Below, in pieces: positions 1 through 20,323 of a stretch of 32,910 nt of DNA (position 1 is its first letter; every line of letters starts with the position of its first letter). The stretch is from an uncultured Eubacteriales bacterium. GTDB taxonomy: Bacteria > Bacillota > Clostridia > Christensenellales > Aristaeellaceae. A program made the position numbers and the translations under genes. Below the pieces are notes generated by a model. That model searched no databases, was not told the DNA's origin, and saw only the letters and a list, made by a program, of their open reading frames with translations. The stretch lies in contig CACYZW010000046.1 of NCBI GenBank assembly GCA_902778995.1, forward strand, positions 1 through 32,910, in the 5' to 3' direction.

Positions 1-1293
1 GATATTCTTTTCCTTGATCATCGGCTGGGACAGGTTCACGAGGTTTTCCACCGTCTCAACGATCGAGAAGGTCAGCGGGCTGAGGGTCAGCTTTCCGCTT
101 TCGACCTTGGAAATGTCCAGAATATCGTTGATGAGCGTGAGAAGATGGTTGCTGGCCATCGTGATCTTCCGCAGGTATTCTCCCATCGATTCCGTGTCGC
201 CGAGGTTCTTTTCCGCGATGGTCGTAAGGCCGATGATCGCGTTCATGGGCGTGCGAATATCGTGGGACATCGTGGAGAGAAAATCGGTCTTCGCCTTGTT
301 GGCCGCTGCCGCCTCCCTGGCTGCCGCCTGCAGCTTTTTGTTGAAGGTAAGCATGACCGCCAGGTCAAACACGAACAGTATCAGCAGGCCCGAGGAGACA
401 AAGCCGATCAGCAGCCAGTTTTCGCTGCTCACGCTCAGATCCTTCATCGGCATGAAGCTCAGAAGCGTCCATCCCCCTGCCGCGTCAACCGGGGTATAGG
501 CGAGTATGCATTCCTCGCCGCGGGAGTTCAGCATGGTGAAGGAGCCGGTCGACGAGGTGATTTTCTTGAAGAACGCCTGTGCGGAGGCGGGGTCAATCGC
601 GTTGTACGACCTGTAAAACTCAAAGAAACTGGCATTTTTGAAGGAATGGCCCTTGATGATATAATCGCCGTTCGCGTCGATCATGGAAAGCTCTGCGTTT
701 TCAAACTCCTCCTGGGGGAAGACCCACTTCTGTTCCAGCTCTGACAGCGGCAGCACGCGCAGCAATATGGCGCTTCGGGGATTGCCGGTCTGCGGATCAT
801 GGACCGTTATATTATTGCAGAAGGCTATGGACTGTTCGCCGTTGACGGGGTTCGTATAGGCGCGGGATATGTTGATGGATTCCCCTATGTCGTGGATCCA
901 GCTCACGTCGTTCAGCAGCTCCATCCGCTCGTAAGTGACGGAATAGTCGTCGGAGGTATCGTGCATCGCTCTCGTGGACAGGCCGGACAGCGTATCAAGG
1001 TACACGATATGCGCCGAGGCGTTCGGCAGCACGTGGGAAATCCGAATGAAGGAAATGGCCTCCTCGATGGTCATGTCCTTGCTGTTGATATAGCGCGCCC
1101 ACACATCGCAGATGCGCTGCTCGCCCGCCAGATAATTCTCGGTGACATGCTCCATGGCGATTGTGGTGTTCTCAAAATGCTCTATCTGCCTTTGTATTGT
1201 TTTCCTGTTCGTAGAGCTGGAATAGAGGACCACGAAGGACAGCATGGCGATCATGATGAGCACGTTGACGATAATGACCCCGTTTTTCTTCAC
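1..1293 (-). CDS. Membrane sensor histidine kinase (3' part lies outside the window)
   Basis: This reading frame stays open through base 1, so only the first 431 codons are visible. The start is GTG at 1293, with GAAGGGGGG upstream and an in-frame TAA two codons before it. It has a membrane helix at about residues 5-22, an extracytoplasmic sensor of about 265 residues (dCache-like by size and position, by inference), a second helix at about 290-315 and a HisKA dimerisation/phosphoacceptor domain. The H-box reads SHDIRTPMNAIIG with His344 as phospho-acceptor, followed by the LINDILDISKVESGKL segment. The H-box style is typical of hybrid kinases, so a catalytic domain and probably a receiver should follow beyond the window. 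It is the third leftward gene after the binding protein and diguanylate cyclase, 131 bases downstream of the latter. The ligand is unknown. Confidence 0.9.
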   Translation of the reverse strand, partial: MKKNGVIIVNVLIMIAMLSFVVLYSSSTNRKTIQRQIEHFENTTIAMEHVTENYLAGEQRICDVWARYINSKDMTIEEAISFIRISHVLPNASAHIVYLDTLSGLSTRAMHDTSDDYSVTYERMELLNDVSWIHDIGESINISRAYTNPVNGEQSIAFCNNITVHDPQTGNPRSAILLRVLPLSELEQKWVFPQEEFENAELSMIDANGDYIIKGHSFKNASFFEFYRSYNAIDPASAQAFFKKITSSTGSFTMLNSRGEECILAYTPVDAAGGWTLLSFMPMKDLSVSSENWLLIGFVSSGLLILFVFDLAVMLTFNKKLQAAAREAAAANKAKTDFLSTMSHDIRTPMNAIIGLTTIAEKNLGDTESMGEYLRKITMASNHLLTLINDILDISKVESGKLTLSPLTFSIVETVENLVNLSQPMIKEKNI

Positions 1294-1424
1294 TGCGCTT
1301 TACGCCCCCCTTCGTAAATCCTTTCCCAAACGCATCAGCGCTATTTGAGTCAGGCGTATCAATGGCTTACGCACTCATCTCACCTGTAACCGCCGCGTCT
1401 GTCCGCCGGCGCATGGCCCGTCAA

Positions 1425-2891
1425 TCAGATGCGACTTGGCGATGCGCCCATGGCCTTGAGTTCCTTCTTGCGTTCATACATCATCCGATCCGCCCGGTCA
1501 AAAATGTCGCGCAGCTGTTGATCCCCTTGGTTCAGGACGGAGTAGCCCACCGAAATGACCACGGAATTCTTTTTGATGTTCGCTTCCACCTGACGGTTCA
1601 GCTCGGCGATCACATCGCGCATCGTTTCATAGCCCCTTCCCTGAAGGAGGACGACAAATTCGTCGCCGCCTATCCTGAATACTGCGCCGTGCTTGAAATA
1701 ATTGCAGATCATCGCGCAGGCGTCCTTGATCAGCTGATCCCCGGCCGCGTGGCCCCGCGTATCGTTGACGTGCTTCAGCCCGTTGATGTCGCAGACCACG
1801 ACCCCCAGCGCCTGCAATTCTCCCGACTGTATCCGCCCGTTGAGCACCGCTTCGTTTTCGGAATAAGCGTGCTTGTTCCGAACGCCGGTCAAGGAATCCG
1901 TATTCGCCATGTTGCGGAAGACCCTGCTGTTTTCCTCCTCCGCCAAGAGCTTCGCCTTGGAAAGGCTTCTGATCTGGAAGAGGATGATTATGGCAAGCGT
2001 CAATGTCGAAACCAGCGTGAAGATGATCAGGGACTTGCTGGTTTCAAGGTATTTTTTGCTGATGCCCTGGATTCGATCCTGTATGACGCTCTCGTGAATC
2101 AGTACCGCCATCTCCCAGCCCGTGCCCTGGATCGGAACATAATACAGCGTCTCGTGGGTGTTGCCGGAGACAAACGAAAGGTTTCCCTCCTTCTCGTTTG
2201 AAAAGTTCCCCTGGATTTCCTCCAGGACATCCTCCGAAACGATGCCCCTGACAGCCTTTAACAGGTTGTGATCCGAGATCACGGGCCCCAGCTCGGTGCC
2301 GGACAGGTTGGCGCCGCTCTTTGAGTACAGGGCGAAATGGGTCCTGCCCTGATCGTCAAACGCCAGCAGATCGACGATATCCTGGATGTCGAACTGGTCC
2401 GGCGTCGGTATCACCAGGCACAGCTGCTTGGAGGAACCGTAGAGGGAAACGGTGCTGATGGTTCGACTTTTCTTCTCCTCGCCGGACAGAAAACTGTGTC
2501 GGCTTCTGCCGGTATAGGTCGTATATCGCGTGTAAACGATGTCGTCTTCATCGACCAGCGCAAACCGGTTGAGGCTCAGCAGCGATTCGACCTTGCCGAT
2601 CGTATTGCGCAATTCATCCTGCGACCCGATCTGTTCCCCGTCAATGAACGTAACGGCTTTTTCCATCTCATCGAAGCTGTCGTTGATCAGGTTTGTGATG
2701 GCCTTTGCGCGGCGGTCCGCCATTGCCTCAAGGTAGAAGGCGCTGACCGCAGAGACCGCCTCGTCCGTCGCGGCAGCGGCCTGTTTTGATTCCCATATGG
2801 TATTGGCCGTTATCGACGCCATGATCAACAGGCTGCCTATGACGGCTGTCAGGACAATCATCTTTTTGGTTATCATTATTTTATGTGCCAT
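1425..2891 (-). CDS. Membrane-anchored diguanylate cyclase (sensor-GGDEF)
   Basis: Predicted to make cyclic di-GMP from two GTP. The 488-residue protein has a membrane helix near residues 11-30, an extracytoplasmic sensor of about 255 residues, a second helix near 288-308 and a C-terminal GGDEF domain. The signature RIGGDEF is intact (GGDEF at about 408-412), as is the upstream CDINGLKHVND metal/nucleotide segment, so catalysis is expected. No RxxD inhibitory site is seen at the usual place before GGDEF, so product feedback may be absent. Its ATG overlaps the upstream gene's stop as TGATG, which indicates translational coupling to the binding-protein gene; a GTG one codon earlier (2894) is the alternative start. 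The pairing suggests that the lipoprotein feeds ligand information to this enzyme, but that is inference. Confidence 0.92.
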   Translation of the reverse strand: MAHKIMITKKMIVLTAVIGSLLIMASITANTIWESKQAAAATDEAVSAVSAFYLEAMADRRAKAITNLINDSFDEMEKAVTFIDGEQIGSQDELRNTIGKVESLLSLNRFALVDEDDIVYTRYTTYTGRSRHSFLSGEEKKSRTISTVSLYGSSKQLCLVIPTPDQFDIQDIVDLLAFDDQGRTHFALYSKSGANLSGTELGPVISDHNLLKAVRGIVSEDVLEEIQGNFSNEKEGNLSFVSGNTHETLYYVPIQGTGWEMAVLIHESVIQDRIQGISKKYLETSKSLIIFTLVSTLTLAIIILFQIRSLSKAKLLAEEENSRVFRNMANTDSLTGVRNKHAYSENEAVLNGRIQSGELQALGVVVCDINGLKHVNDTRGHAAGDQLIKDACAMICNYFKHGAVFRIGGDEFVVLLQGRGYETMRDVIAELNRQVEANIKKNSVVISVGYSVLNQGDQQLRDIFDRADRMMYERKKELKAMGASPSRI

Positions 2892-4012
2892 CACATTTCA
2901 CCGTACAGCAGTTCAAGCATCAAAGCCGCGTTTTTCTGAAAGATTATTGTCGTGATCTCATCTGTTTTCTCCGGGAACAGTTCGCCGGCCTGATTCCCGT
3001 CCGCGATTTTCACGGCTGTCTGGATGGTATCAAAGCCGATGGAATAACAATCCTGTACGCCGAGGCAATAGATCACGCCGTCGTCCAAATAGCGCAGGGC
3101 CTCCTCGTCGTGATCCATGCCCACGATAACGGCGTTGCTGCCCTTTTCTGTGATCGCCCTGGCGGCTCCGACGGGGTTGCTCATGTTACAGCAGATGATG
3201 CCGTCGAGATCCGGGCATTTCTCCAGGATCCCGAGGGTCAGATCATAGGCGATATCCACGGAATCCATGTCATATTCCGTGGCGACGATCTCCATATCGC
3301 CGTATTTGGCGATGGTATCCCTTGCGCCCCGCGCCCGGTCCTCATGGCAGGGCGCGCCGACGCTTCCCACGAGAATTGCAACCTTTCCCTTGTACCCCAG
3401 CTTTTCGCAAATCGCCTCCGTAAGGTCTGCGCCGTCCCGGTAATTGTGGGTATTGCCCACATAGGCGATTCTTTTGCAGCCTGCGGCGGCGTCGGAGCTT
3501 GAAAAGGTCATGACCTTCGTGCCGGAATCCACCATCTCATCGAGCAGCGGCGATATGATGCGCTCGTCCGCGACATCCACGCCGATCACATCGTAGTCCT
3601 TCTGTTCGGCGGCAAGCAGCTTTTTCTTCTGGTCTTCGGCGGAGGCCACGTCCGGCGCCATGTATTCATAGGTAATCGTTATGCCCTTGTCCAGAAATTG
3701 CCTCTGGGCTTCCTCCATCCCAAGCGCCACCGCGTCCCACCAGGGGTGTACGGTCTTGTATGTAAAATAGAAATTGTAATGGTCCTTCAGCGGCACATAG
3801 GCGTCCAGCTCATGCTCGAAGTCCACCGCGCTGCGCACGGACTCGTCCGAACCGGTTGAAATGGCCGGCGCTTCGGCGCTTGCGCCCAAATTGTCTGAAG
3901 GCACATCGTCGCCTGAACCGGAAGCGGGGGAGGCCAGGGAACAGGCCGCGAAAATGAACGCCGCAATCAATGCGGAAATTAACAGACCCGTCAGCTTTCC
4001 GATTCCTGGCAT
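2891..4012 (-). CDS. Sugar-type periplasmic-binding lipoprotein (RbsB/LsrB-like fold)
   Basis: A 373-residue substrate-binding protein of the Peripla_BP_4 type. The chosen start is ATG at 4012, preceded by AAAGGTGGAGG. It gives a basic N-terminus, a hydrophobic helix and a lipobox ending FAAC, with Cys24 as the lipidation site. A longer frame beginning at 4123 has no good ribosome site and would bury the signal peptide. After a linker rich in Ser, Gly and Asp, the ligand-binding fold starts at YFTYKTVHPWW and continues with the typical alternating segments (AILVGSVGAPC, GIICCNMSNPVG, VIVGMDHDEEAL). No ABC permease or ATPase is nearby. It is instead coupled to a diguanylate cyclase, so a sensory role is more likely than bulk uptake. 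Ligand unknown; a sugar or AI-2-like molecule is possible. Confidence 0.88.
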   Translation of the reverse strand: MPGIGKLTGLLISALIAAFIFAACSLASPASGSGDDVPSDNLGASAEAPAISTGSDESVRSAVDFEHELDAYVPLKDHYNFYFTYKTVHPWWDAVALGMEEAQRQFLDKGITITYEYMAPDVASAEDQKKKLLAAEQKDYDVIGVDVADERIISPLLDEMVDSGTKVMTFSSSDAAAGCKRIAYVGNTHNYRDGADLTEAICEKLGYKGKVAILVGSVGAPCHEDRARGARDTIAKYGDMEIVATEYDMDSVDIAYDLTLGILEKCPDLDGIICCNMSNPVGAARAITEKGSNAVIVGMDHDEEALRYLDDGVIYCLGVQDCYSIGFDTIQTAVKIADGNQAGELFPEKTDEITTIIFQKNAALMLELLYGEM

Positions 4013-4149
4013 TTGTATCCTCCACCTTTCCGCGACAGGCGCCGCAGCGGCATGAAACAGCGTGCCTGCGTGCGATATCCTGCTATGCGGTACCGACTTC
4101 ACGCAGAATCGACTGTTATCCATCGTGCATCCTATAAATCACCGTGTCC

Positions 4150-4472: not shown

Positions 4473-4502
4473 TTGACAGTATTATGGAAACGGGTCTAAA
4501 AT
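4473..4502 (+). promoter_or_regulatory. Predicted sigma-A promoter of the rightward transporter-signalling operon
   Basis: TTGACA (4473-4478) and TAAAAT (4497-4502) lie 18 bases apart. The leader to the GTG start at 4551 would be about 40 bases and carries the ribosome site GGAGGGG at 4538-4544. Confidence 0.72.
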
Positions 4503-4550: not shown

Positions 4551-7500
4551 GTGGAGAAACAGAAGCCAGAGAGCGGAAAAAGCACGACGTTACAGCCCTA
4601 CCTTTCGCCGCTGGCCGTATGGGCCTTATCGGTGGGCTCGGCCATCGGCTGGGGGTCCCTTGTCGTCACCAGTCGGACCTACCTTTCCCAGGCGGGGCCG
4701 CTGGGCTCCATCCTCGGCCTGCTGATCGGTTTTGCCATGATGCTGATGGTGGCGAATCACTATCATTATTTGAACATGCACTATCCAGGCACAGGCGGGC
4801 TGTACAACTATGTGAAGCATATCTTCGGCTATGACCGCGCCTTCCTCGTCGCCTGGTTCATGTTCCTGGTCTACATTTCCATATTCTGGGCCAACGCCAC
4901 GAGCATCCCGCTGTTTGCGCGGTATTTCCTCCGGGGCGTCTTTAAGGTCGGATATCTGTACACCATCTTCGGCTACGAGGTCTATCTGGGCGAGGCGCTG
5001 GTGACGCTGTTGTCCATCGCCCTGATCGGACTGCTTTGCGCAAAGACCAAGCGGGGAACCGCGCGCATCATGGTGGTGCTGGCGCTGCTGTTTACCGCGG
5101 GCATCACGGTATGCTTTGCGGTGGCCATGGCGGGTCACGGCGCTTCCGGGATGACCATGGACCCTGCCTTTGTCCCGGATAAAGCCGTTCTGTGGCAGGT
5201 CGTGCGCATCGCGTTCATATCGCCCTGGGCCTTTATCGGCTTTGAAAGCGTGTCCCATTCCACCGATGAGTATCACTTCAAGCACAGCGCCCTGTTCCGC
5301 GTGCTGGTGATTTCCCTGATCGTTACCACGGCGCTGTATATCTTCGTGATATTGCTGAGCATTACCGCCTACCCGGAGGGCTGCTCCAGCTGGCTGGATT
5401 ACATCACCCGCCTGGACGAGTTCGAGGGCATCGCAGGGCTTCCGGCCTTCTATGCCGCCAACCATTACCTCGGCTCTACCGGCGTCTACATCCTGATGGC
5501 CTCTCTGCTGGCGCTGGTGATCACCAGCCTGATCGGTATGCTGCGTGCCGTCAGCCGCCTGTGCTTCGCCATCGCGCAGGACGGCATTCTCCCCAAGCGC
5601 TTTGCCGAGCTCAGCGGGAACCAGATCCCGGTCAGGGCCATCCTGCTGGTGCTCGTCGTCTCCCTGCCCATACCCTTCCTCGGCAGGACCGCCATCGGCT
5701 GGATCGTGGATACCACCACCATCGGCGCCGTCATACTCTACGGCTTCGCCTCCGCGGCTGTTCTCAAGCTGTCAAAGCAGGAAAGCAACAAAAAACAGCA
5801 GTTCGTCAGCGGCATATGCATGTTTATCATGGCCGCCTTCATCATATTCCTCCTCTTCCCGAGCGCCTTTGCCGACTACACCATCGCCACCGAGACCTAT
5901 GTGCTCATAGCCGTGTGGTCCATCCTCGGCCTGTGCTTCTTCCAGTATGTCATACGCAGGGACCACGCCCGGAATTTCGGCAAGGCCATCATCGTGTGGA
6001 TCGCCCTGCTGGCCTTCATCGTGCTGATGGCGATGACTTGGGCGGAGCGGCTGAACGAGGAAAGGGAAAACAAGGTGGTGGAGGAAATCGCCGTCTATAT
6101 GGATGAGATGAAGGACGGGAGCACCACGCCGGCGGAAAGGGATGAATTCCTGGCCGTACAGCGCCAGCGCCTGCACTCGGCGGACAATACCAGCGTTATG
6201 GTCATCGCCGCGCTGTTCGGCATATCCCTCGTCGTCATGATCGGCAACCACATTTCCCTGCAAAAATGGGAAAAGAAGGCCAATCAGGAGCGCGACCAGG
6301 CGCGCACCGTCGCCTTCACAGACCCCATGACCGGCGTCAAAAGCAAGCACGCTTTCCTGATGAAGCAGAAGGAGTTTGACGCCCGGATCGCCAGCAACGA
6401 GATGGACCCCTTTGCGGTGGTCGTCTGCGACGTCAATGGCCTGAAGGTCATCAACGACACCCTGGGCCATAAGGCGGGCGACGAGTACATACTCAAGGCC
6501 AGCAGGATGATCTGCGATATCTTCCAGCACAGCCCGGTATACCGCACGGGCGGCGATGAATTCGTGGTGATACTGAACGGACGCGATTACCTCATCCGCA
6601 AGGAACTGGTGCTGGCCCTGCACGACCGCTCGGTGGAGCATATCAGCACGAAGGAAGTCGTCATTTCAGGCGGCCTTTCGGAGTATAACGCCGGCAAGGA
6701 CGCCAGCTTCCACGAAGTATTTGAGCGCGCCGACAGCCTGATGTACGAGGAAAAGAAGCTGCTGAAGGGCATGGGCGCCATCTCGCGGGAGGACGTCGAG
6801 GAAGAGGCCCCCAAGCAGATGTTCGCGCTGGACAAGGGCGCTGAGATCCTGAACCTCAAACGCCGGGTCCTCATCGTCGAGGACGAAAAGGTCAACCAGA
6901 TGATACTCGGCGAAATACTCGGCGAAGGCTACGAGCTGCTGTACGCCTCCGACGGCGCCGAAGCCCTGGAGCAGATCAAGCTGCACAAGGACGATATGAC
7001 GCTGGTGCTGCTGGATCTGCAGATGCCGAGGATGAGCGGCATGGAAGTCCTGAAGGTCATGAAGGAGGAAGAGGAGCTCAGCCACATTCCGGTAATCGTG
7101 ATGACCGCCGACCAGAGCGCCGAGGTGGAATGCCTCAAGATCGGGGCCATCGACTTCATTCCCAAGCCCTATCCCTCCTGGGAGATCGTCCAGGCCCGCG
7201 TCAATCGCTGCATCGAGCTTTTCGAGAAGCGCAATATCATACAGTCCACGGAGCGCGACAGCCTGACCAACCTGTTCAATCTCGAATACTTCCTCCGCTA
7301 TGTGCGGATGTACGACCAGCACTATCCCGAAATGCCGATGGACGCCATCGTGCTGGACGTCAACCACTTCCATATGCTCAACGAGCGCTACGGCAAGCAG
7401 TACGGCGACAGCGTCCTCGCCCGCATCGGCAAGCAGATCCGCCAGGTATCCCGGGAGGTCGGCGGCGTGGGATGCCGCCGGGGCGCGGACACCTTCCTCA

Positions 7501-8927
7501 TCTATTGCCCGCACAGGGAGGATTACGCCGCCATACTGGACAAGGCCTCCGAAAACCTTGTGGACGAGAACACGTCCGGGAACCGGGTCCGGCTGCGCAT
7601 GGGCGTGTACTCCCAGGTCGACAAATCGCTGGAGATCGAGCGCCGCTTTGACTACGCGAAGATCGCCGCGAACACCGTCAAGAGCGGATATCAGAAGGCC
7701 ATCGGCATCTACGACAGCGAAATGCACGAAGCCGCGCTGTACAGGGAGCGCCTTCTGGAGGACTTCAGGCCGTCCCTGGAGAGCGGCCGCTTCATGGTCT
7801 TCTTCCAGCCCAAGTTCGATATCCGTCCCGAAAAGCCCATACTGTCCAGCGCGGAGGCGCTGGTGCGGTGGGATCACCCCGAGCTGGGCATGATCAGTCC
7901 CGGCGTATTCATCCCCCTGCTGGAGGACAACGGCCTGATCCTGGAGCTCGACCGATACGTGTGGCGTGAAACCGCGTCAAGAATACGGGATTGGAAGGAT
8001 CGCTTCGGCTATTCCGTGCCGGTGTCGGTGAACGTGTCCCGAATCGATATGCTGACGCCGAACCTGAAGAATATCTTCAAGGAGATCCTGGAAGCCTATC
8101 GCCTCGACGCGGAGGACCTGGTGCTTGAGATCACCGAGTCCGCCTATACCGGCGATTCCGATCAGGTCATATCCACGGCCAAGGAGCTGCGCGGCATGGG
8201 CATGGGCTTCCGCATCGAGATGGACGACTTCGGTACCGGCTATTCGTCGCTGGGCATGCTGTCGCACCTGCCCATCGACGCGCTGAAGCTGGACATGAGC
8301 TTCGTGCGCAGCGCCTTCGGCGAAAACCGGGACGTGCGCATGATCGAGCTGATCATCGACATCGCGGATTATCTGCATGTGCCCGTCGTGGCCGAGGGCG
8401 TGGAAACCGAGGAGCAGTATCTGGTGCTGAAGGCGATGGGCTGCGACATGGTGCAGGGCTATTTCTTCTCGAAGCCCGTGCCGCCTGAGGCCTTCGATCA
8501 TTTCCTGCTCGAACGGGGCAATGTGAAGGTCGAAATGACGCCCACGGAAAAGAAGACCTACATGAGCATCTCCAAGGCGCTGACCAGTGATTTCGAGAGC
8601 ATCTTCTATGTGGATGTCGTCACTGACTTCTACCTTGAGTTCTTCACGGGCGAGGACGGCGACCTCAAGATCCGTCCCGGCGGGGCTGACTTTTTCGAGG
8701 AGGCCCGGGAGAAGCTGCTGAAGGACGTGTACGAGCCCGACGTGGAAAAGGTCAGACAGGCCACCGGCAAGGCAAACCTGATGCGCTGGACCGGCCAGCA
8801 GGAAACCGTCGCGCTGTCCTTCCGCAAGCTGAGGCAGGGCGTGCCGACGCCTTATTCGCTGCAAACCATCAAGACCCGGGAAAGCGACAACCACCACATC
8901 GTCATTGGCATACGACAGGAAAAATAA
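4551..8927 (+). CDS. APC-transporter-like sensor fused to GGDEF-REC-GGDEF-EAL
   Basis: A 1458-residue fusion starting at GTG 4551 behind GGAGGGG. Residues 1 to about 468 form a 12-helix amino-acid-permease-like (APC superfamily) domain that keeps the unwound TM1 motif GSAIGWG and the TM6 motif PWAFIGFE. Two further helices (about 477-495 and 546-566) flank a 50-residue loop. Next come an intact GGDEF domain (GGDEF at 667-671, no RxxD I-site), a receiver (LLDLQMP, phospho-Asp822, terminal FIPKPY), and a second GGDEF with a degenerate site (GADTF at 978-982). The EAL domain carries AEALVRW (Glu1102), SVNVSR, EITES, DDFGTGYSSLG and VAEGVETEEQ, so phosphodiesterase activity is expected. A C-terminal tail of about 125 residues is of unknown fold. 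The protein may both make and degrade c-di-GMP under control of transporter-domain ligand and receiver phosphorylation; that control is inferred. Confidence 0.93.
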   Translation: MEKQKPESGKSTTLQPYLSPLAVWALSVGSAIGWGSLVVTSRTYLSQAGPLGSILGLLIGFAMMLMVANHYHYLNMHYPGTGGLYNYVKHIFGYDRAFLVAWFMFLVYISIFWANATSIPLFARYFLRGVFKVGYLYTIFGYEVYLGEALVTLLSIALIGLLCAKTKRGTARIMVVLALLFTAGITVCFAVAMAGHGASGMTMDPAFVPDKAVLWQVVRIAFISPWAFIGFESVSHSTDEYHFKHSALFRVLVISLIVTTALYIFVILLSITAYPEGCSSWLDYITRLDEFEGIAGLPAFYAANHYLGSTGVYILMASLLALVITSLIGMLRAVSRLCFAIAQDGILPKRFAELSGNQIPVRAILLVLVVSLPIPFLGRTAIGWIVDTTTIGAVILYGFASAAVLKLSKQESNKKQQFVSGICMFIMAAFIIFLLFPSAFADYTIATETYVLIAVWSILGLCFFQYVIRRDHARNFGKAIIVWIALLAFIVLMAMTWAERLNEERENKVVEEIAVYMDEMKDGSTTPAERDEFLAVQRQRLHSADNTSVMVIAALFGISLVVMIGNHISLQKWEKKANQERDQARTVAFTDPMTGVKSKHAFLMKQKEFDARIASNEMDPFAVVVCDVNGLKVINDTLGHKAGDEYILKASRMICDIFQHSPVYRTGGDEFVVILNGRDYLIRKELVLALHDRSVEHISTKEVVISGGLSEYNAGKDASFHEVFERADSLMYEEKKLLKGMGAISREDVEEEAPKQMFALDKGAEILNLKRRVLIVEDEKVNQMILGEILGEGYELLYASDGAEALEQIKLHKDDMTLVLLDLQMPRMSGMEVLKVMKEEEELSHIPVIVMTADQSAEVECLKIGAIDFIPKPYPSWEIVQARVNRCIELFEKRNIIQSTERDSLTNLFNLEYFLRYVRMYDQHYPEMPMDAIVLDVNHFHMLNERYGKQYGDSVLARIGKQIRQVSREVGGVGCRRGADTFLIYCPHREDYAAILDKASENLVDENTSGNRVRLRMGVYSQVDKSLEIERRFDYAKIAANTVKSGYQKAIGIYDSEMHEAALYRERLLEDFRPSLESGRFMVFFQPKFDIRPEKPILSSAEALVRWDHPELGMISPGVFIPLLEDNGLILELDRYVWRETASRIRDWKDRFGYSVPVSVNVSRIDMLTPNLKNIFKEILEAYRLDAEDLVLEITESAYTGDSDQVISTAKELRGMGMGFRIEMDDFGTGYSSLGMLSHLPIDALKLDMSFVRSAFGENRDVRMIELIIDIADYLHVPVVAEGVETEEQYLVLKAMGCDMVQGYFFSKPVPPEAFDHFLLERGNVKVEMTPTEKKTYMSISKALTSDFESIFYVDVVTDFYLEFFTGEDGDLKIRPGGADFFEEAREKLLKDVYEPDVEKVRQATGKANLMRWTGQQETVALSFRKLRQGVPTPYSLQTIKTRESDNHHIVIGIRQEK

Positions 8928-8954: not shown

Positions 8955-9293
8955 ATGACATTGGACGCTTTGCGCGCCTATGGCGCGAACACCGCCGAAG
9001 GGGTGGCCCGGTGCATGAACAATGAGCCGTTTTATCTCAGAATGGTCGCCATGGCTTTGGCGGACAAGAATTTCGACGCGCTGACAGCCGCCGTGGACGC
9101 GGGCGATGGCACTGCGGCATTTGAGGCCGCCCATGCGCTGAAGGGCTCCATCGGCAACGTTTCGCTGACCCCGATATATAAGCCGCTTTGCGAACTGACG
9201 GAGCTGCTGCGCGGCAAGAGCATGCCGGCGGATGGCGGCAGGGCGCTGCTGGAGCAGATCGTGGCCGAACGGGAGAAGGCGTTGAAGCTGTGA
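8955..9293 (+). CDS. Histidine phosphotransfer (Hpt) protein
   Basis: A 112-residue helical protein with the Hpt signature AAHALKGSIGNVSL; His60 is the expected phospho-acceptor, followed by the usual LKGxxxN pattern. It starts at ATG 8955 behind AGGAGGGA, 27 bases after the transporter-GGDEF-EAL gene and 29 bases before the transporter-kinase gene. It can be placed as a shuttle between the receiver of the downstream hybrid kinase and the receiver inside the upstream GGDEF/EAL protein. No other domain is present. Confidence 0.9.
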   Translation: MTLDALRAYGANTAEGVARCMNNEPFYLRMVAMALADKNFDALTAAVDAGDGTAAFEAAHALKGSIGNVSLTPIYKPLCELTELLRGKSMPADGGRALLEQIVAEREKALKL

Positions 9294-9322
9294 CGGAGGG
9301 GGGACAGCAGGGAGAAAGGAAG

Positions 9323-12136
9323 ATGGATAAGGGCAGTCAGGATAACGCCAGGGCGCTCGACCGCTATCTGTCGCCCCTGGACGTCTGGGCCCTTGCTTTC
9401 GGCTGCATGGTGGGGTGGGGCGTGTTTGCCATGCCCGGCACCACCTTCCTGCCCGTCGCCGGTCCCGCCGGCACGGTGACAGCCATGCTGATCGGCATGG
9501 CTGTCATGCTTGTGATCGGAAGCAATTTCACCTATCTTATGGGTCGTTCCTCCATGACGGGCGGCGTGTATTCCTATACAAAGGAAGCCTTCGGGCGGGA
9601 TCACGCCTTCCTGAGCTGCTGGTTCCTCTGCCTGTCCTATCTGACGATTGTATTCCTGAACGGTACCGCGCTTTTTCTCGTTGTGCGAACGCTGCTCTCC
9701 GATACCGCGCAGACCGGCATACATTACACGGTCGCGGGCAATACCATCTATCTCAGCGAAACCATCGCTTCGATCATCGCGCTGGCGGGCTTCGGCGCGC
9801 TGTTTGTGTGGGCAAAGCCCCTGCTGCAGCGCCTGCAAACGATACTGGCCGTCGTCCTGATAGCCGGGATCCTGTTGACGGCGGCATGCTGTCTGCCGTC
9901 TGTCTTCCGCAACGGGGTGATCGGCGACTTTGGCATACGGGGGTTGAACAGGGACTATGCGGTTTTCAGCCTGGTCATACTGGCGCCCTGGGCGTTCGTG
10001 GGATTTGAGGTAACGGCCTTCGACACCGCGCACTTTCGCTTTCCGATGCGCAGATCCCGGAGCATCATCGCCGCGTCCATCGTCATTGCGGCCATCGCGT
10101 ACATTGCCATGGCGCTGACCAGCGTGGCGTCGGTTCCCGACGGGTTTTCCTCATGGCAGGCGTATATCGCCGCCCTGGACGGTCTGAAAGGCGTCGCCTC
10201 GACGCCGACGTTCTACGTCGCGAAGCGCATCATGGGCCCGTTTGGGCTGGTGGTGATGACGATAACCGCCATTGCCGCGATACTGACCGGCATTATCGGG
10301 GGCTACCGGGGCACCACCCGCGTCCTTTCGACCATGGCGGAGGACCGCATACTGTCGGAGCGCTTTTCCAGGACGACCTACAGCATACTGTTCATCATGG
10401 CGCTGTCCATAATGCTTTCCCTGCTTGGGAGGAACACGCTGAACTGGTTTGTCGATCTGACCTCCTTCGGGGCGATCATCGGCTTCGGCTATACCTCCGC
10501 CGCTGCGTGGAAGATCGCCCGGGCGGAAGGCAACCGGCGGACCACGATCACCGGCGTGACGGGTACCGTCATATCCGCCGCGTTCGCCATCGTGCAGATC
10601 GTGCCGCGCCTGGCGGCAATGGAGACGATGGAGAGCGAGGCGTTCCTCCTGCTGTCCCTCTGGTGCCTGCTGGGCTTTGTGTTTTACTGGCGGACGGTTA
10701 TCCGAAGCTCGCTGACAGAGTTCAGCGGCATGTCCACCTCGGGCATTGCGCTGTTTTCGCTCCTGATCTATTCGGCCATGATGTGGCTGGGCAAGCGGGT
10801 CATGGCGGGGGAAAGCGCGGAGCAGATGCGGACGATACTGACCCGGGACGGCGTACTGCTGATCGTCATCACCTTTGTGGGGCTGGCCGTGATGCTGTAT
10901 GTTCAGAATGTGGTGCGGGAAAAGCATGAGGCCGTGGAGCGCGAGAAGATTCACGCGGTGGAGAGCAGCCTGGCCAAGAGCCAGTTCCTGTTCAACATGT
11001 CCCACGATATCCGCACCCCGATGAACGCCATCATCGGCTATACGACACTGTCGCTGAAGGAGCCGGCATCCCCTCAGCTTCACAGCTATCTGGAAAAGAT
11101 CGACATGTCGAGCCAGCACCTGCTTGCGCTCATCAACGACATCCTTGAGATGAGCCGCATTGAGAGCGGCAGGATCGAGCTTGAATTTTTGCCGCTGGAT
11201 ATTTGCGCGCTGTTCGACGGCATGCGCGATCTGTTTTCCGAGCAGATGAAGCAGAAGCAAATGGATTTCCGGGTGCATACCGGCCAGGTGCAGCACCGCC
11301 ATGTCTGGTGCGACCAAAAGAACCTGAATCGCGTGCTGCTGAATATCCTCTCAAACGCCTACAAGTTCACGCCGTCCGGCGGCACGATCACCGCCTCGCT
11401 CCTGGAGACCGGCGTTACGGACAACAACTACGGCGCCTACGAGATCCGCGTGCAGGATACCGGCATCGGCATGTCCAGGGAATTCGCGGAAAGGATGTTC
11501 AACGCCTTTGAACGGGAGCGCAGCTCCACGGTCAGCGGCATCGAGGGGACGGGACTGGGCCTGTCCATCACGAAGCGGATCATCGACCTGATGGGCGGCA
11601 CCATCGAGGTGCTCACGGCGCCCGGCAGCGGGACGCAGATCGTCATCCGGCTGAAGTTCAAGCTCGCGGAGGAAAAGGACGTCACGGATGGCGCGCAATC
11701 GCTTCCGGCCGAACCGGATGTCGCTGCGGAAGCGGAAGTCGATTTTTCGACCAAGCGATTGCTGCTGGTGGAAGACAATCAGATCAATATGGAAATCGCC
11801 ATGATGATTCTCACCCAGGCGGGCTTCACGGTGGAATCCGCGGAAAACGGCCGGGTCGCCGTGGACATGGTGGCGGCCTCCGAGCCGGGCTATTACGACG
11901 CGATCCTGATGGACATCCAGATGCCGGTGATGGACGGCTACGAGGCTACCCGGGCGATACGCGCCCTGGAAAACCGGAAGCTGGCCGACATCCCCATACT
12001 GGCCATGACGGCCAACGCATTCAAAGAGGACGTGGAAGCGGCGAAGGAAGCCGGGATGGTCGCCCACATCGCCAAGCCCGTGGACGTGCAAAAGATGCTG
12101 GCAATACTGAAAAACGTGCTTGCGGAAAAACGGTGA
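9323..12136 (+). CDS. APC-transporter-like hybrid sensor histidine kinase
   Basis: A 937-residue protein. The start is ATG 9323 behind GGAGAAAGGAAG; a longer open frame from 9188 overlaps the Hpt gene and is not used. The N-terminal 12-helix domain is paralogous to that of the protein at 4551: both begin YLSPL.VWAL, and here TM1 reads GCMVGWG and TM6 APWAFVGFE. Two more helices follow (SGIALFSLLIYSAMMW and VLLIVITFVGLAVMLYV), then a short coiled coil. The HisKA domain has SHDIRTPMNAIIGY with His561. The ATPase domain has the N-box NILSNAYKFTPSGG, DTGIGMS and GTGLGLSITKRI. The C-terminal receiver has LLLVEDNQIN, phospho-Asp864 in MDIQMP and IAKPVD. All catalytic elements are present. The architecture parallels CbrA-type kinases, which use an SSS rather than an APC transporter module. 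The ligand is unknown, possibly an amino acid. Confidence 0.93.
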   Translation: MDKGSQDNARALDRYLSPLDVWALAFGCMVGWGVFAMPGTTFLPVAGPAGTVTAMLIGMAVMLVIGSNFTYLMGRSSMTGGVYSYTKEAFGRDHAFLSCWFLCLSYLTIVFLNGTALFLVVRTLLSDTAQTGIHYTVAGNTIYLSETIASIIALAGFGALFVWAKPLLQRLQTILAVVLIAGILLTAACCLPSVFRNGVIGDFGIRGLNRDYAVFSLVILAPWAFVGFEVTAFDTAHFRFPMRRSRSIIAASIVIAAIAYIAMALTSVASVPDGFSSWQAYIAALDGLKGVASTPTFYVAKRIMGPFGLVVMTITAIAAILTGIIGGYRGTTRVLSTMAEDRILSERFSRTTYSILFIMALSIMLSLLGRNTLNWFVDLTSFGAIIGFGYTSAAAWKIARAEGNRRTTITGVTGTVISAAFAIVQIVPRLAAMETMESEAFLLLSLWCLLGFVFYWRTVIRSSLTEFSGMSTSGIALFSLLIYSAMMWLGKRVMAGESAEQMRTILTRDGVLLIVITFVGLAVMLYVQNVVREKHEAVEREKIHAVESSLAKSQFLFNMSHDIRTPMNAIIGYTTLSLKEPASPQLHSYLEKIDMSSQHLLALINDILEMSRIESGRIELEFLPLDICALFDGMRDLFSEQMKQKQMDFRVHTGQVQHRHVWCDQKNLNRVLLNILSNAYKFTPSGGTITASLLETGVTDNNYGAYEIRVQDTGIGMSREFAERMFNAFERERSSTVSGIEGTGLGLSITKRIIDLMGGTIEVLTAPGSGTQIVIRLKFKLAEEKDVTDGAQSLPAEPDVAAEAEVDFSTKRLLLVEDNQINMEIAMMILTQAGFTVESAENGRVAVDMVAASEPGYYDAILMDIQMPVMDGYEATRAIRALENRKLADIPILAMTANAFKEDVEAAKEAGMVAHIAKPVDVQKMLAILKNVLAEKR

Positions 12137-16374: not shown

Positions 16375-17304
16375 ATGAGTATAAAGGACATCCTGAAGGA
16401 TCGAATGGCGTTTTCATTTGAAGTATTCCCGCCCAAGACCGACGCTGGCATGGAAAAGCTTTGCGGCGCGGGGGGAGTGCTGGAGCATCTCTATGAATTG
16501 AACCCCGACTATATTTCATGTACCTATGGCGCCGGCGGAAGCAATGTTGGCAAGAATCTCGAGGTACTCGACAAGATCAAAAAGGACGGCAAGTGCATCC
16601 CGGTGACCCACTTCACGTGCGTCGCAAATACAAAGGAGGGCATCGCCGAACAGCTGCGGGCCTATTTGGAGCATGGCATCGATCATATGCTGGCCCTGCG
16701 CGGCGACATTCCCTTCGGCTGGATCGGCACCGGCGGCGACCTGCACTACGCCACCGAGCTCGTGAAGTTTACCCGCAAAACCTTCGGCGACAGGTTCACC
16801 ATCGCGGTGGCGGGCTCGCCCGAGGGCCACATCGCCTGCCGGAGCATTGAAGCGGACATTGCCTTCCTGAAGCAAAAGCAGGATGAAGGGGCGGACTACA
16901 TCATGACCCAGCTGTGCTGGGACATGGACCAGTTCCGCTGGTGGCTGGACGCCATCCGCGCCGCTGGCGTGTATATGCCTGTGGATGTGGGCATCATGCC
17001 GGTGCTGGACATCGCCGCGACCGTCAACATGGCGCTCAGCCGAAACGGCTGCGTCATGCCCAGGGCGCTGACGGAGATCATCTCCAGGCACTGGATCTTC
17101 CCGAATCCCTTCGCGCCCGGCGAGAGCGAGGAAGCCATCGCCGCCAAGAAAGCGGCCTTTAAGGAGGCGGGCATGGCCTACACCGTTCGCCTGATCGACG
17201 AATACCGCGCCTGCGGCATCGACGGCATCCACCTTTACGCGCTGAACAAATACGAGGATGTCACCCGACTGGTGAAGGAATCCGGGATTATCGATCTGAT
17301 TTGA
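16375..17304 (+). CDS. metF: Methylenetetrahydrofolate reductase (MetF)
   Basis: A 309-residue flavin TIM-barrel enzyme that reduces 5,10-methylene-THF to 5-methyl-THF, the last step of the methyl branch before transfer to the corrinoid protein. The N-terminal FSFEVFPPKT carries the catalytic Glu (Glu16). Further family motifs are SCTYGAGGS, HFTCV, LALRGDIP, GSPEGH and MTQLCWD. It starts at ATG 16375 behind GTGGAGG. The length matches bacterial MetF. It is first in a tight operon with cooC, acsD, acsC and acsE, which points to an acetogenic-type rather than a purely methionine-biosynthetic role. The MetV partner common in acetogens is not seen next to it. Confidence 0.95.
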   Translation: MSIKDILKDRMAFSFEVFPPKTDAGMEKLCGAGGVLEHLYELNPDYISCTYGAGGSNVGKNLEVLDKIKKDGKCIPVTHFTCVANTKEGIAEQLRAYLEHGIDHMLALRGDIPFGWIGTGGDLHYATELVKFTRKTFGDRFTIAVAGSPEGHIACRSIEADIAFLKQKQDEGADYIMTQLCWDMDQFRWWLDAIRAAGVYMPVDVGIMPVLDIAATVNMALSRNGCVMPRALTEIISRHWIFPNPFAPGESEEAIAAKKAAFKEAGMAYTVRLIDEYRACGIDGIHLYALNKYEDVTRLVKESGIIDLI

Positions 17305-17322
17305 TCAAAGACTGGAGCAAAA

Positions 17323-18096
17323 ATGGCAACACATGTTATCGCTGTGGCCGGCAAGGGCGGCGTCGGCAAGACGACGGCCTGCGGCATGATAATAGAATAT
17401 CTGTGCGCGAAGGGCAAGGGCCCGCTGCTGGTGGTGGACGCCGACGCCAATTCCAACCTGAACGAGGTGCTGGGCGTCGAAGTTGACACCACGCTGGGCA
17501 GCATCCGCGAGGAGATGGCCCACGCGGAGCTCATGCCGGTCAGCCCCATTCCGTCGGGCATGACCAAGCAGGAGTACGCCGAATACAAATTCAACGAAGC
17601 CCTGATCGAAGAGGACGACTTTGACATGCTGGTCATGGGGCGCACCGAGGGCAAGGGCTGCTATTGCTACGTCAACGGCGTTCTCAAGTCCCAGATCGAC
17701 AAGTATTACGGTCGCTACAAATACATGGTGATCGACAACGAGGCGGGCATGGAGCACATCGCCCGGGGAACCCTGCCCCATGTCGATACGCTGTTGCTGG
17801 TCAGCGACTGCTCCCGCCGGGGCATACAGGCCGCCGCGCGCATCGCCGAAATGGTGAACGCGCTGGAGCTCAGGCCCGGCGTCATGAAACTGATCGTTAA
17901 CCGCGCGCCGGGCGGACGCCTGAACGACGGGGTTAAGGAAGAGATTGAAAAGCACGGCCTTGATCTGGCGGGTGTGCTGCCGCAGGACGAGCTCGTTTAC
18001 GAGTACGACTGCGAGGGCAAACCCAGCGCCAAGGTACCAGATGACGCGCCGGTGAAGGTCGCGCTGAAATCAATCATGGATACACTGGCACTTTAG
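17323..18096 (+). CDS. cooC: CooC/AcsF-type nickel-insertion ATPase
   Basis: A 257-residue MinD-like P-loop ATPase that matures the nickel sites of CO dehydrogenase or acetyl-CoA synthase. The deviant Walker A is GKGGVGKTT (residues 10-18), with the signature Lys11. The CxC metal-binding pair is Cys113/Cys115 in KGCYCYVN, and DNEAGMEH provides the switch II-like segment. It starts at ATG 17323, 18 bases after metF. Its place directly before acsD agrees with the cooC-acsD-acsC-acsE order known in clostridial Wood-Ljungdahl clusters. Its client enzyme is not encoded in this window. Confidence 0.93.
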   Translation: MATHVIAVAGKGGVGKTTACGMIIEYLCAKGKGPLLVVDADANSNLNEVLGVEVDTTLGSIREEMAHAELMPVSPIPSGMTKQEYAEYKFNEALIEEDDFDMLVMGRTEGKGCYCYVNGVLKSQIDKYYGRYKYMVIDNEAGMEHIARGTLPHVDTLLLVSDCSRRGIQAAARIAEMVNALELRPGVMKLIVNRAPGGRLNDGVKEEIEKHGLDLAGVLPQDELVYEYDCEGKPSAKVPDDAPVKVALKSIMDTLAL

Positions 18097-18152
18097 GAAG
18101 CGCGCCCAACCGCCGCGCTTTCGGCAACGACGACAAACAGGGGGAATACAAC

Positions 18153-19097
18153 ATGGCTTTCACTCCAAAAAAGCAGGCGTTCAATGCCAGGATCAATGCG
18201 GTCACCCTCGGCACGGGCGACAAGAGCATCGTGATCGGCGGCGAAAACGTACTGCCCTTCTACACCTTCGACGCGCCCATTGAGAACAAGCCCAAGATCG
18301 CCGTCGAGATTTCCGACAAGGGCCTCGCGGGCATCGTTTCGCCCGGCCTGCTGGACTTCTACGCCGGCTGTGAATCCGTCGTGGACATGGCGAAAAAGGC
18401 CGAGACGATGGAGGGTGCTTCCGCGATCTGTCTGCACTTTGAGAGCGCCGATCCCAACGGCGACAATACCTCGGTCGCAGACTGCGTCGCGCTGGCGAAG
18501 GCCGTGGCCGACGCCGTTTCCATGCCCATTCTGGTGATGGGCTGCAAGAACATCGAAAAGGACGCCGAGCTGTTCTCCGCCGTCTCCGACGCGCTGCAGG
18601 GCAAGAACATCCTGGTGCTCTCCTCCCGTGAAGAGAACTATAAGACCGTCGGCGCCTCCGCCGGCCTGGCCTACAATCAAAAGGTCGGCGCGGAATCCGC
18701 CGTGGACATCAACCTGGCCAAGCAGCTGAACGTGCTGCTTTCCCAGCTGGGCGTGCCCGCGCAGAGCATCTGCATGAACGTGGGCTCCTCCGCTGCGGGC
18801 TATGGCTTTGAATACCTTTCCTCCACGCTGGATCGCGTGAAGGCCGCCGCTCTGGCGCAGAACGACGCGCAGCTGCAGATGCCCATTGTGACGCCCATCA
18901 GCACCGAGACCTGGGGCGTCAAGGAATCCATGTCCCCCGAAGAGGAAACCCCCGAATGGGGTCCCCTCGACGAGCGCGGCATTGAGATGGAAGTGTGTAC
19001 CGCCTCAGCCTGCCTGATGGGCGGCTCCGAGATGGTCATCATGAAGCACCCTGCCGCTGTCGCCACCATCGCCAAGTTTATCGACAGCCTGATGTGA
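18153..19097 (+). CDS. acsD: Corrinoid iron-sulfur protein small subunit (AcsD, CODH/ACS delta)
   Basis: A 314-residue TIM-barrel protein that pairs with AcsC to form the corrinoid Fe-S protein carrying methyl from methyl-THF to acetyl-CoA synthase. Recognisable stretches are LPFYTFDAPIENKPKIAVEI, GLLDFYAGCESVVDMAKKAE, ILVMGCKNIEKD, SSAAGYGFEYL and EAS-type tail residues in METCTAS-like VCTASACLMGGSEM. The length fits the family (about 310). It starts at ATG 18153 after CAGGGGGAA. The reading frame is intact, unlike that of its partner subunit, and it lies 22 bases before acsC. Confidence 0.95.
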   Translation: MAFTPKKQAFNARINAVTLGTGDKSIVIGGENVLPFYTFDAPIENKPKIAVEISDKGLAGIVSPGLLDFYAGCESVVDMAKKAETMEGASAICLHFESADPNGDNTSVADCVALAKAVADAVSMPILVMGCKNIEKDAELFSAVSDALQGKNILVLSSREENYKTVGASAGLAYNQKVGAESAVDINLAKQLNVLLSQLGVPAQSICMNVGSSAAGYGFEYLSSTLDRVKAAALAQNDAQLQMPIVTPISTETWGVKESMSPEEETPEWGPLDERGIEMEVCTASACLMGGSEMVIMKHPAAVATIAKFIDSLM

Positions 19098-19119
19098 GCG
19101 GGGAAGGAGGAAAAGAACC

Positions 19120-20323
19120 ATGGCTCTGAAAGGTCTTGACATATTTAAGCTGACCCCCAAGAAGAATTGCAAGGAATGCGGCAGCCCCACCTGCATGGCG
19201 TTTTCCATGAAGGTCGCCTCCGGCGCGGTGCCGATTGAGAAGTGCCCCTACATGTCCGCCGACGCCCTGGCCACCCTGTCCGAGGCCACCGCCCCCCTGA
19301 TGAAGACCATCACCGTCGGCGCGGGCGCCACCGAACACAAGCTGGGCGGCGAGACCGTGCTGTTCCGCCACGAAAAGACCCTGATCAACCGCAACCTCTA
19401 CGCCGTCACCCTCTGCTCCTGCATGAGCGAGGCCGAGATCGACGCCAAGATCGCCGAGATCAAGAAGGTCGACTACGAGCGCATCGGCGAGCGCGAGTAC
19501 GTGGAATTTCTGTATCTAAACTATGCCGGCAACGGGGCGGACGCCTATGTGGCGCTGGTCAAGAAGGCCATGGCCGCCGAGCGCGCGCTGGTGCTGAACT
19601 GCGCCGACGCCGATGTCGCCAAGGCTGCGCTGGATCTCTGCAAGGCCGCCAAGCCCCTACTCAACGGCGCGAACAAGGAGAATGCCGAGGCCATGAACGC
19701 CGTGGCCACCGCCGCGGGCGTCACCCTGGGCGTGGGCGGCGCGGACATCTCCGAAATCTACGACACCATCAAGCTGCTGGAGGGCAAGGGCAACAAGAAC
19801 CTGATCATCGACTGCACCGGCGCGGACGCGAAGCAGACCTTTGCCAACGCCGTGATGGTGCGCCGCGGCAACCTGAAGCGAGGCGCTGGCGCTGTACGGC
19901 CTGCGCCAGAACATCTTCACCGATCCCCAGAAGCCCATGAAGGTGGAGCCCGGCATCTATGCCCTCAATGGCGCGGACGAGAATTCCGTCTGCTCTCTGA
20001 CCGTGGACTTCGCGCTGACCTACTTCCTGGTCTCCGGTGAGTACGAGCGCTCCAAGTGCCCGGTCAACCTGCTGATTACCGACGCGAGCGGCATGTCCGT
20101 GCTGACGGCCTGGGCCGCGGGCAAGTTCTCGGCGGGCACTATCAAGAAATTCTTCGACGAGTTCGACATCGAGAACAAGATCAAGTCCCGCACACTGATC
20201 ATTCCCGGCAAGGTCGCCGTGATGAAGGGCGAGATCGAGGCCAAGCTGCCCGGCTGGAACGTGGTGGTCGGCCCCATGGAGGCGGTCCAACTGGTCAAGT
20301 TCATCAAGGATTTCAACGCTTAA
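19120..20323 (+). pseudogene. acsC: Corrinoid iron-sulfur protein large subunit (AcsC), frameshifted with an internal deletion
   Basis: AcsC carries the 4Fe-4S cluster and the corrinoid cofactor. The cluster-binding Cys set is present (Cys17, Cys20, Cys25, Cys42: CKECGSPTC and KCPY). The frame from ATG 19120 is family-like through VMVRRGNLK (Lys253, 19878), then turns to nonsense, ending at 20040. The correct sequence resumes in the +1 frame at 19880 (EALALYGLRQNIFTDP) and runs through SVLTAWAAGKF in the corrinoid domain to TAA at 20323. The two parts total about 400 residues against about 446 expected. Roughly 45 residues of the barrel domain, between the RR motif and LRQNIFTDP, are missing as well as the frame. 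This is either a true loss of function or an assembly/sequencing error; intact neighbours and good codon use make an error quite possible. Confidence 0.9.

Follow-up and report, generated by a model that had tools for sequence, protein, structure and literature searches.

Does a transporter-like sensor kinase signal, through a separate phosphotransfer protein, to the cyclic di-GMP (c-di-GMP) enzyme encoded beside it? This question is raised by three adjacent genes on a contig of an uncultured Eubacteriales bacterium (GenBank assembly GCA_902778995.1, contig CACYZW010000046.1), which was analysed over 32,910 nucleotides, hereafter the window. In order and all on the plus strand, the genes encode a c-di-GMP enzyme (4551-8927), a histidine phosphotransfer (Hpt) protein (8955-9293), and a hybrid histidine kinase (9323-12136). 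We consider that they probably form a multi-step phosphorelay operon leading from the permease-kinase via Hpt to the c-di-GMP enzyme, with a probability of about 0.72. A relay of hybrid kinase, Hpt and REC-degenerate GGDEF-EAL protein (REC, receiver) is the best reading of the locus because its stations are intact and their linkage is far beyond chance.

The initial annotation had assigned the phosphorylation sites to kinase H561 and D864, Hpt H60, and D822 of the enzyme, and every residue was found at its position. H561 lies in MSHD (from residue 559) and D864 in LMDIQMP (from residue 862) of the kinase, H60 in HALKGS of the Hpt protein, and D822 in LLDLQMP (from residue 820) of the enzyme. 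The intergenic gaps of 27 bp (enzyme-Hpt) and 29 bp (Hpt-kinase) were likewise borne out by the open reading frame (ORF) coordinates. However, the span given for the relay, 8955-12136, covers the Hpt and kinase genes and omits the enzyme gene. In a Pfam domain search, all named domains of the three proteins scored above cut-off.

The kinase is an APC permease-HisKA-HATPase-REC protein of 937 residues, delimited by Pfam and a structure model; the ATG at 9323 was used as its start, and the longest ORF begins at a TTG at 9188. Its APC-family membrane domain (residues 16-428, 9368-10606) matched AA_permease_2 (PF13520) with an E-value of 3.1e-14 and 53.2 bits against a cut-off of 27, and was also recognized by its fold. 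It is followed by HisKA (8.2e-19) and HATPase_c (1.5e-25) at 10973-11662, with H561 at bases 11003-11005, and by the receiver (Response_reg, 2.2e-23) at 11762-12109, with D864 at bases 11912-11914. These were the only Pfam matches at E-values up to 0.01, and neither SSS nor STAC was matched (for STAC, a result that depends on Pfam including a model of it). The modelled permease domain has a LeuT fold, with helices 1 and 6 interrupted and target TM-scores of 0.74-0.81 against AdiC and 0.77-0.78 against a bacterial CAT homologue. The full model had a mean pLDDT (predicted local distance difference test) of 80.2 and a pTM (predicted TM-score) of 0.61, with lower confidence around the linker, and contained an unbroken helix (499-578) running from the membrane into HisKA. 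Within this helix, a 71-column stretch from the last membrane helix into HisKA (residues 505-575, 10835-11047) had gaps in none of 62 aligned rows, which comprised the window and 61 of the 67 intact genes listed. From its family, the ligand or cargo of the domain may be amino-acid-like.

The c-di-GMP enzyme (1458 residues, GTG start) has the order APC permease-GGDEF-REC-degenerate GGDEF-EAL-PAS. Its own AA_permease_2 domain (residues 18-439, 4602-5867) gave 110.2 bits against the cut-off of 27 (1.5e-31). GGDEF domain 1 (residues 588-736, 6312-6758) has an intact RTGGDEF motif, and the receiver (residues 773-881, 6867-7193; 1.6e-22), with D822 at bases 7014-7016, lies between it and the second GGDEF plus EAL. 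GGDEF domain 2 (about residues 893-1058, 7227-7724, boundaries set by hand) has the degenerate motif RRGADTF; the GGDEF family matched two stretches of the protein (3.7e-38). The EAL phosphodiesterase domain (residues 1070-1309, 7758-8477; 1.5e-60) retains all the catalytic motifs searched for (EALVRW, NVS, DDFG, KLD, and EGVE). No Pfam family matched the last 134 residues (8523-8924), for which AlphaFold2 predicted a PAS-like domain (mean pLDDT 79.7); the Foldseek matches listed were mainly PAS/LOV proteins, with TM-scores over the query of 0.35-0.52. The same domain, also lacking a Pfam match, recurs in five other loci (L081, L085, L131, L025, and L029), where GGDEF and kinase proteins carry between one and four copies of it. 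Across the whole source genome (G000), 85 stretches matched the enzyme, including GGDEF, EAL, receiver, PAS, and permease pieces.

Among 58 REC-EAL proteins, the GGDEF adjoining the receiver had a canonical motif in none, and the EAL motif patterns were mostly kept (DDFG 58/58, NxS 58/58, EGVE 56/58, EAL 55/58, KxD 51/58). Since the GGDEF next to the receiver is degenerate and the EAL is mostly intact, c-di-GMP hydrolysis is most likely the output controlled by the relay. In some relatives the permease-GGDEF half and the REC-GGDEF-EAL half are separate genes. With the intact GGDEF on the permease side, the window enzyme is therefore best viewed as a putative fusion in which the permease controls a cyclase and the relay controls a phosphodiesterase.

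The Hpt protein has 112 residues, with H60 at bases 9132-9134, and was identified by Pfam (1.2e-7, 32.3 bits against a cut-off of 24.6); no solved structure matched it better than E 0.013. The genus contained 67 Hpt matches in 28 genomes, or about 0.75 per Mb on the sum of listed genome sizes. By chance, about 0.013 Hpt would be expected per 17 kb, so that only some 1% of genes would have an Hpt at a distance of 7 kb or less.

A single transcript for the three genes is plausible because neither gap holds a recognizable plus-strand promoter-like or terminator-like site. A weak promoter-like site (TTGACA-18-TAAAAT, 4473-4502, plus strand, 11 of 12 consensus matches) lies 5' of the first gene; seven such sites were found in the region, with 3.6 expected from shuffles.

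To place the gene set in relatives, named genomes were scanned with the kinase's permease domain, and the best 80 of at least 535 loci were kept. All but one were titled as metagenome-assembled genomes (MAGs) or uncultured bacteria, many by ruminant gut site, the other being Ruminococcus flavefaciens ATCC 19208 (L124); the permease was fused to a histidine kinase in 78 of the 80. Thirty-five loci had at least 7 kb on both sides, and within 7 kb an Hpt gene was present in 14, a REC-GGDEF-EAL gene in 19, and both in 13. A later profile search added one Hpt in a locus with a short flank, outside the 35 (L095). We also defined operon-like clusters (same strand, gaps up to 450 bp) in the window and 79 loci, excluding L147, which has no kinase. 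An APC gene and an Hpt occurred together in 24 of these 80 clusters, the window and the isolate R. flavefaciens included, and 22 of the 24 also had an EAL protein; the APC gene was a kinase in 23 (the exception is L148). The exact form permease-enzyme, Hpt, permease-kinase was found only in the window. Across the order, 2 of 396 genomes, the source genome included, had a kinase match at E ≤ 1e-240 (two candidates scored per listed genome). The second (G058) matched over the full length at 69% identity, with an Hpt 2.6 kb away; any Hpt was found in 61 of 200 order genomes.

A survey of 46 standalone Hpts in the genus showed the same association from the side of the phosphotransfer protein, with 34 of them abutting a REC-GGDEF-EAL gene (one, L217, fell in neither of the two classes below, and L184, at a contig edge, yielded none). 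Among Hpts with the motif HA[MAS]KG, 23 of 24 abutted such a gene, and the last sits 303 bp from a contig end. Nineteen of the 24 abutted an APC gene (an annotated kinase in 18, APC alone in L210), and the 18 rows with both neighbours visible had the order enzyme, Hpt, APC gene. In the HALKG/HGLKG class, to which the window Hpt belongs, 11 of 21 abutted a REC-GGDEF-EAL gene. The gene set is thus linked far beyond chance, and similar sets in relatives suggest a real signalling module. Frequent separation of the genes, named by the initial annotation as an argument against its relay, was found in part: Hpt/enzyme/permease-kinase sets recur, but many kinase loci had no nearby Hpt (see below), 12 of the 80 clusters held an EAL protein without Hpt, and in two loci (L079 and L084) the permease-enzyme adjoins the permease-kinase with no Hpt between. 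In nine loci of the HALKG class (L180, L182, L183, L185, L187, L188, L189, L192, and L194), the Hpt gene is directly followed on its 3' side by a gene of 405-432 residues carrying none of the domains searched for.

The direction of phosphotransfer was assessed from the receiver residue three positions before the conserved lysine (K-3). Excerpts of one study describe Y at K-3 in one set of terminal receivers and variable residues in one set of intermediary receivers, not all of which conform to the pattern (PMC9981736). The comparison counted three genomes twice (L101/L060, L107/L061, and L073/L062) and was repeated without them, as given in brackets. K-3 was F in 58/58 receivers of EAL proteins (56/56), H in 73/75 single-receiver APC kinases, the rest being gaps (71/73), and H in the last receiver of 56/56 two-receiver kinases (53/53). 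In the APC-EAL proteins, the acid pair, D, T, K, and F at K-3 were complete in 9/9 receivers (8 distinct). The proposed direction, with the kinase receiver as intermediary and the enzyme receiver as terminal, fits this contrast between F and H.

Based on these features, the following mechanism may be proposed. The APC-permease-fold sensor of the kinase would bind or transport a small solute, and the conformational change would reach HisKA along the helix that prolongs the last membrane helix. Phosphate on H561 would then move to D864, on to H60 of Hpt, and finally to D822 of the permease-fold enzyme, both the transfers and their direction being predicted from the residues. Phosphorylated D822 would switch the REC-degenerate GGDEF-EAL half, most likely changing c-di-GMP hydrolysis in one direction or the other. 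The enzyme's own permease domain would regulate its intact GGDEF, and Hpt would also serve other hybrid kinases.

It should be noted that several results weigh against this proposal. Twenty-one of the 35 well-flanked loci had no Hpt within 7 kb, and 10 of the 21 HALKG/HGLKG Hpts were not beside an EAL receiver protein (two of these lie no more than 900 bp from a contig end). The K-3 pattern also has exceptions, since the first receiver of two-receiver kinases had F at K-3 in 56/56, and single-receiver kinases without APC had H in only 19/23. The source genome, which is 83.1% complete, gave no PilZ match in a search positive in 5 of 14 control genomes. As for other downstream effectors, no c-di-GMP-I riboswitch was found in this genome, in a search that was positive in no control genome and is thus uninformative, and no Rfam family exceeded its gathering score in the window. 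Distance correlations (Mantel tests, omitting L073, L101, and L107, as did the motif comparison below) gave no partner-specific signal, with 0.948 for Hpt and kinase receiver and 0.968 for Hpt and the APC control; co-inheritance was therefore rejected as evidence of Hpt-receiver contact. Partial correlations of Hpt with the enzyme receiver given EAL were -0.06 (51 pairs) and 0.387 (15 HALKG pairs with linked kinase), and with the kinase receiver given the permease 0.282 (32 pairs) and 0.149 (the same 15 pairs). The correlation with the permease given the kinase receiver was 0.655 (32 pairs), higher than the converse 0.282. Insulation of the two Hpt classes by a helix-1 motif of the kinase receiver, an idea that came from linked APC kinases and the source genome, was also rejected. 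One motif was found in 20/20 APC kinases beside HALKG Hpts and another in 18/18 beside the other class. However, among other hybrid kinases, 19/26 beside HALKG Hpts carried the motif of 20/25 beside the other class, so the motif did not separate the classes.

These results bear on how the three proteins are wired. Hpt may be a shared hub, fed by several hybrid kinases and possibly serving several receivers, with the permease-kinase as one input and the enzyme as one output, a proposition to which we give even odds. Among 21 genomes searched (those of 20 of the 21 unlinked well-flanked loci, all except L147, plus L079), 19 hold an Hpt somewhere and 13 exactly one, which lies beside a GGDEF-EAL gene in six of the 13 (1.5 kb searched on each side). 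The source genome has 3 Hpt matches for 10 ORFs annotated as histidine kinase plus receiver, other hybrid kinases often occur in the same operon-like clusters, and kinase receivers next to Hpts of either class can carry one and the same helix-1 motif. On the other hand, another contig of the source genome (L024) carries a second set of hybrid kinase, REC-GGDEF-EAL protein, and Hpt, without permease, which suggests some insulation; Pfam may also miss divergent Hpts, and most of the genomes are incomplete MAGs. Given the loci without nearby Hpt and the unlinked genomes with exactly one, Hpt is probably shared with other hybrid kinases. Because a single Hpt is all that many genomes contain, and because further hybrid kinases are often encoded in the cluster, a node into which many kinases feed is a better fit than a linear circuit reserved for these three proteins. 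The circuit drawn by the initial annotation is partly supported, with intact stations and a linked gene set but probably without exclusiveness. A more radical alternative is that the kinase acts on another regulator without this Hpt, that Hpt and the enzyme serve a different kinase, and that the genes are neighbours as a sensory island. The permease-kinase had no other annotated signalling gene in 22/80 clusters and was preceded only by another kinase in 12/80 (many of both near contig ends), and L079 and L084 place the permease-enzyme beside it with no Hpt. We nevertheless regard this alternative as improbable, in view of H at K-3 in all 73 kinase receivers with a letter there and of the 19 of 21 unlinked genomes that still hold an Hpt.

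The proposed phosphorelay from permease-kinase to c-di-GMP enzyme leaves a choice for the permease domains, which could be pure ligand receptors or, as has been suggested for CbrA, active transporters that signal their own transport through the kinase and enzyme fused to them. The source genome encodes a kinase-less permease (L026:3459-5174, the same gene in L002) 58% identical to the membrane domain of the kinase, and similar permeases were found in 13 further genus loci examined (L036-L046, L058, and L059; 55-59% identical), several of which retain part of the linker sequence past the last membrane helix. Signatures of transmembrane helices (TM) 1 and 6 (GWG; PWAFVGFE) are common to the kinase-less and kinase-fused forms, which speaks for active transport. 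A tree of APC domains was built by a quick method and came with a warning of long branches; it put the 14 kinase-less rows, a clade with support of 100, among kinase-fused rows with a placement support of only 86. This hints that the kinase-less permeases derive from sensors by kinase loss, which would argue against an ancestral transport role, and we put active transport somewhat below even odds. GWG in TM1 was considered as a mark of a non-transporting sensor and rejected, as the standalone permeases carry it too. The APC domains beside HA[MAS]KG Hpts (5 rows sampled) were separated from the lineage of the window kinase by a long branch with support of 100; most simply, APC domains joined hybrid kinases at least twice, since this second lineage lies across a long, fully supported branch. 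More tentatively, and with rather more doubt than confidence, we suggest a large family of bacterial "transceptors", recognizable by sequence, in gut and rumen Clostridia. In such a family, hybrid kinases would have acquired APC domains on several occasions, c-di-GMP enzymes would have acquired them as well, both permease-fold proteins of an operon would report the same nutrient class via Hpt, and the kinase-less permeases would be sensors minus their kinase. Permease domains 60-66% identical also occurred in MAGs labelled Eggerthellaceae, Coriobacteriaceae, and Atopobiaceae (L121, L123, L127, and L138), reflecting either horizontal transfer or mis-binning.

Published systems, described here as in excerpts of the cited articles, show that relays of this kind are known (VieSA). 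What is unusual is the input, since kinase and enzyme each have an APC-family permease domain and an indel-free helix connects that of the kinase to HisKA. In VieSAB of Vibrio cholerae, kinase, receiver, and Hpt stations lead to a c-di-GMP phosphodiesterase response regulator within one operon, but Hpt lies within the kinase, the sensor domains are putatively periplasmic, and the regulator has a DNA-binding domain (PMC4352251). In the window, Hpt is a separate gene and permease domains stand at both ends. RocR is an EAL-type regulator, and the Roc and Pvr sensors are not known to be permease-like and carry Hpt within the kinase. In the comparable Roc and Pvr systems of Pseudomonas aeruginosa, sensor kinases and response regulators form branched networks, with PvrR a phosphodiesterase (PMC12051241, PMC3842833). 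On the input side, CbrA and MxtR/CrbS fuse a LeuT-fold transporter domain to a histidine kinase, and MxtR, which also ends in a receiver, reportedly works through a phosphorelay (PMC7918813, PMC13022988). However, their transporter domains belong to the SLC5/SSS family and are separated from the kinase by STAC and PAS, whereas the window kinase has an APC domain (PF13520) with no further Pfam domain before HisKA and is encoded close to a c-di-GMP enzyme. As its permease is APC rather than SSS and no STAC was matched, the window kinase falls outside the SSS/STAC sensor kinase class. S-component-fold transceptors also reuse a transporter fold as the membrane part of sensor kinases (PMC11109136). 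That link came from a comparison of predicted folds, and the argument that transporters become receptors has been made mostly from yeast and fold comparison (PMC11109136), whereas here fused and kinase-less forms 58% identical occur in one genome. None of the open-access literature matches listed described histidine kinases or GGDEF/EAL proteins with a fused APC-family permease domain. Together with the indel-free linker, the pair of fused and kinase-less permeases in one genome makes the switch between transport and sensing directly testable, and the relay, if true, would connect nutrients resembling amino acids with c-di-GMP in rumen Clostridia.

Two other regions of the window were annotated. 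On the minus strand at 1-4123, a divergent sensory group comprises genes for a Peripla_BP_4 binding protein and a GGDEF protein, together with a kinase gene that the contig end truncates. At 16375-20040, genes for methylenetetrahydrofolate reductase (MTHFR), a CbiA/NifH-like ATPase, and two CdhD-type CO dehydrogenase/acetyl-CoA synthase subunits stand in a row, which suggests a Wood-Ljungdahl pathway in the source organism.

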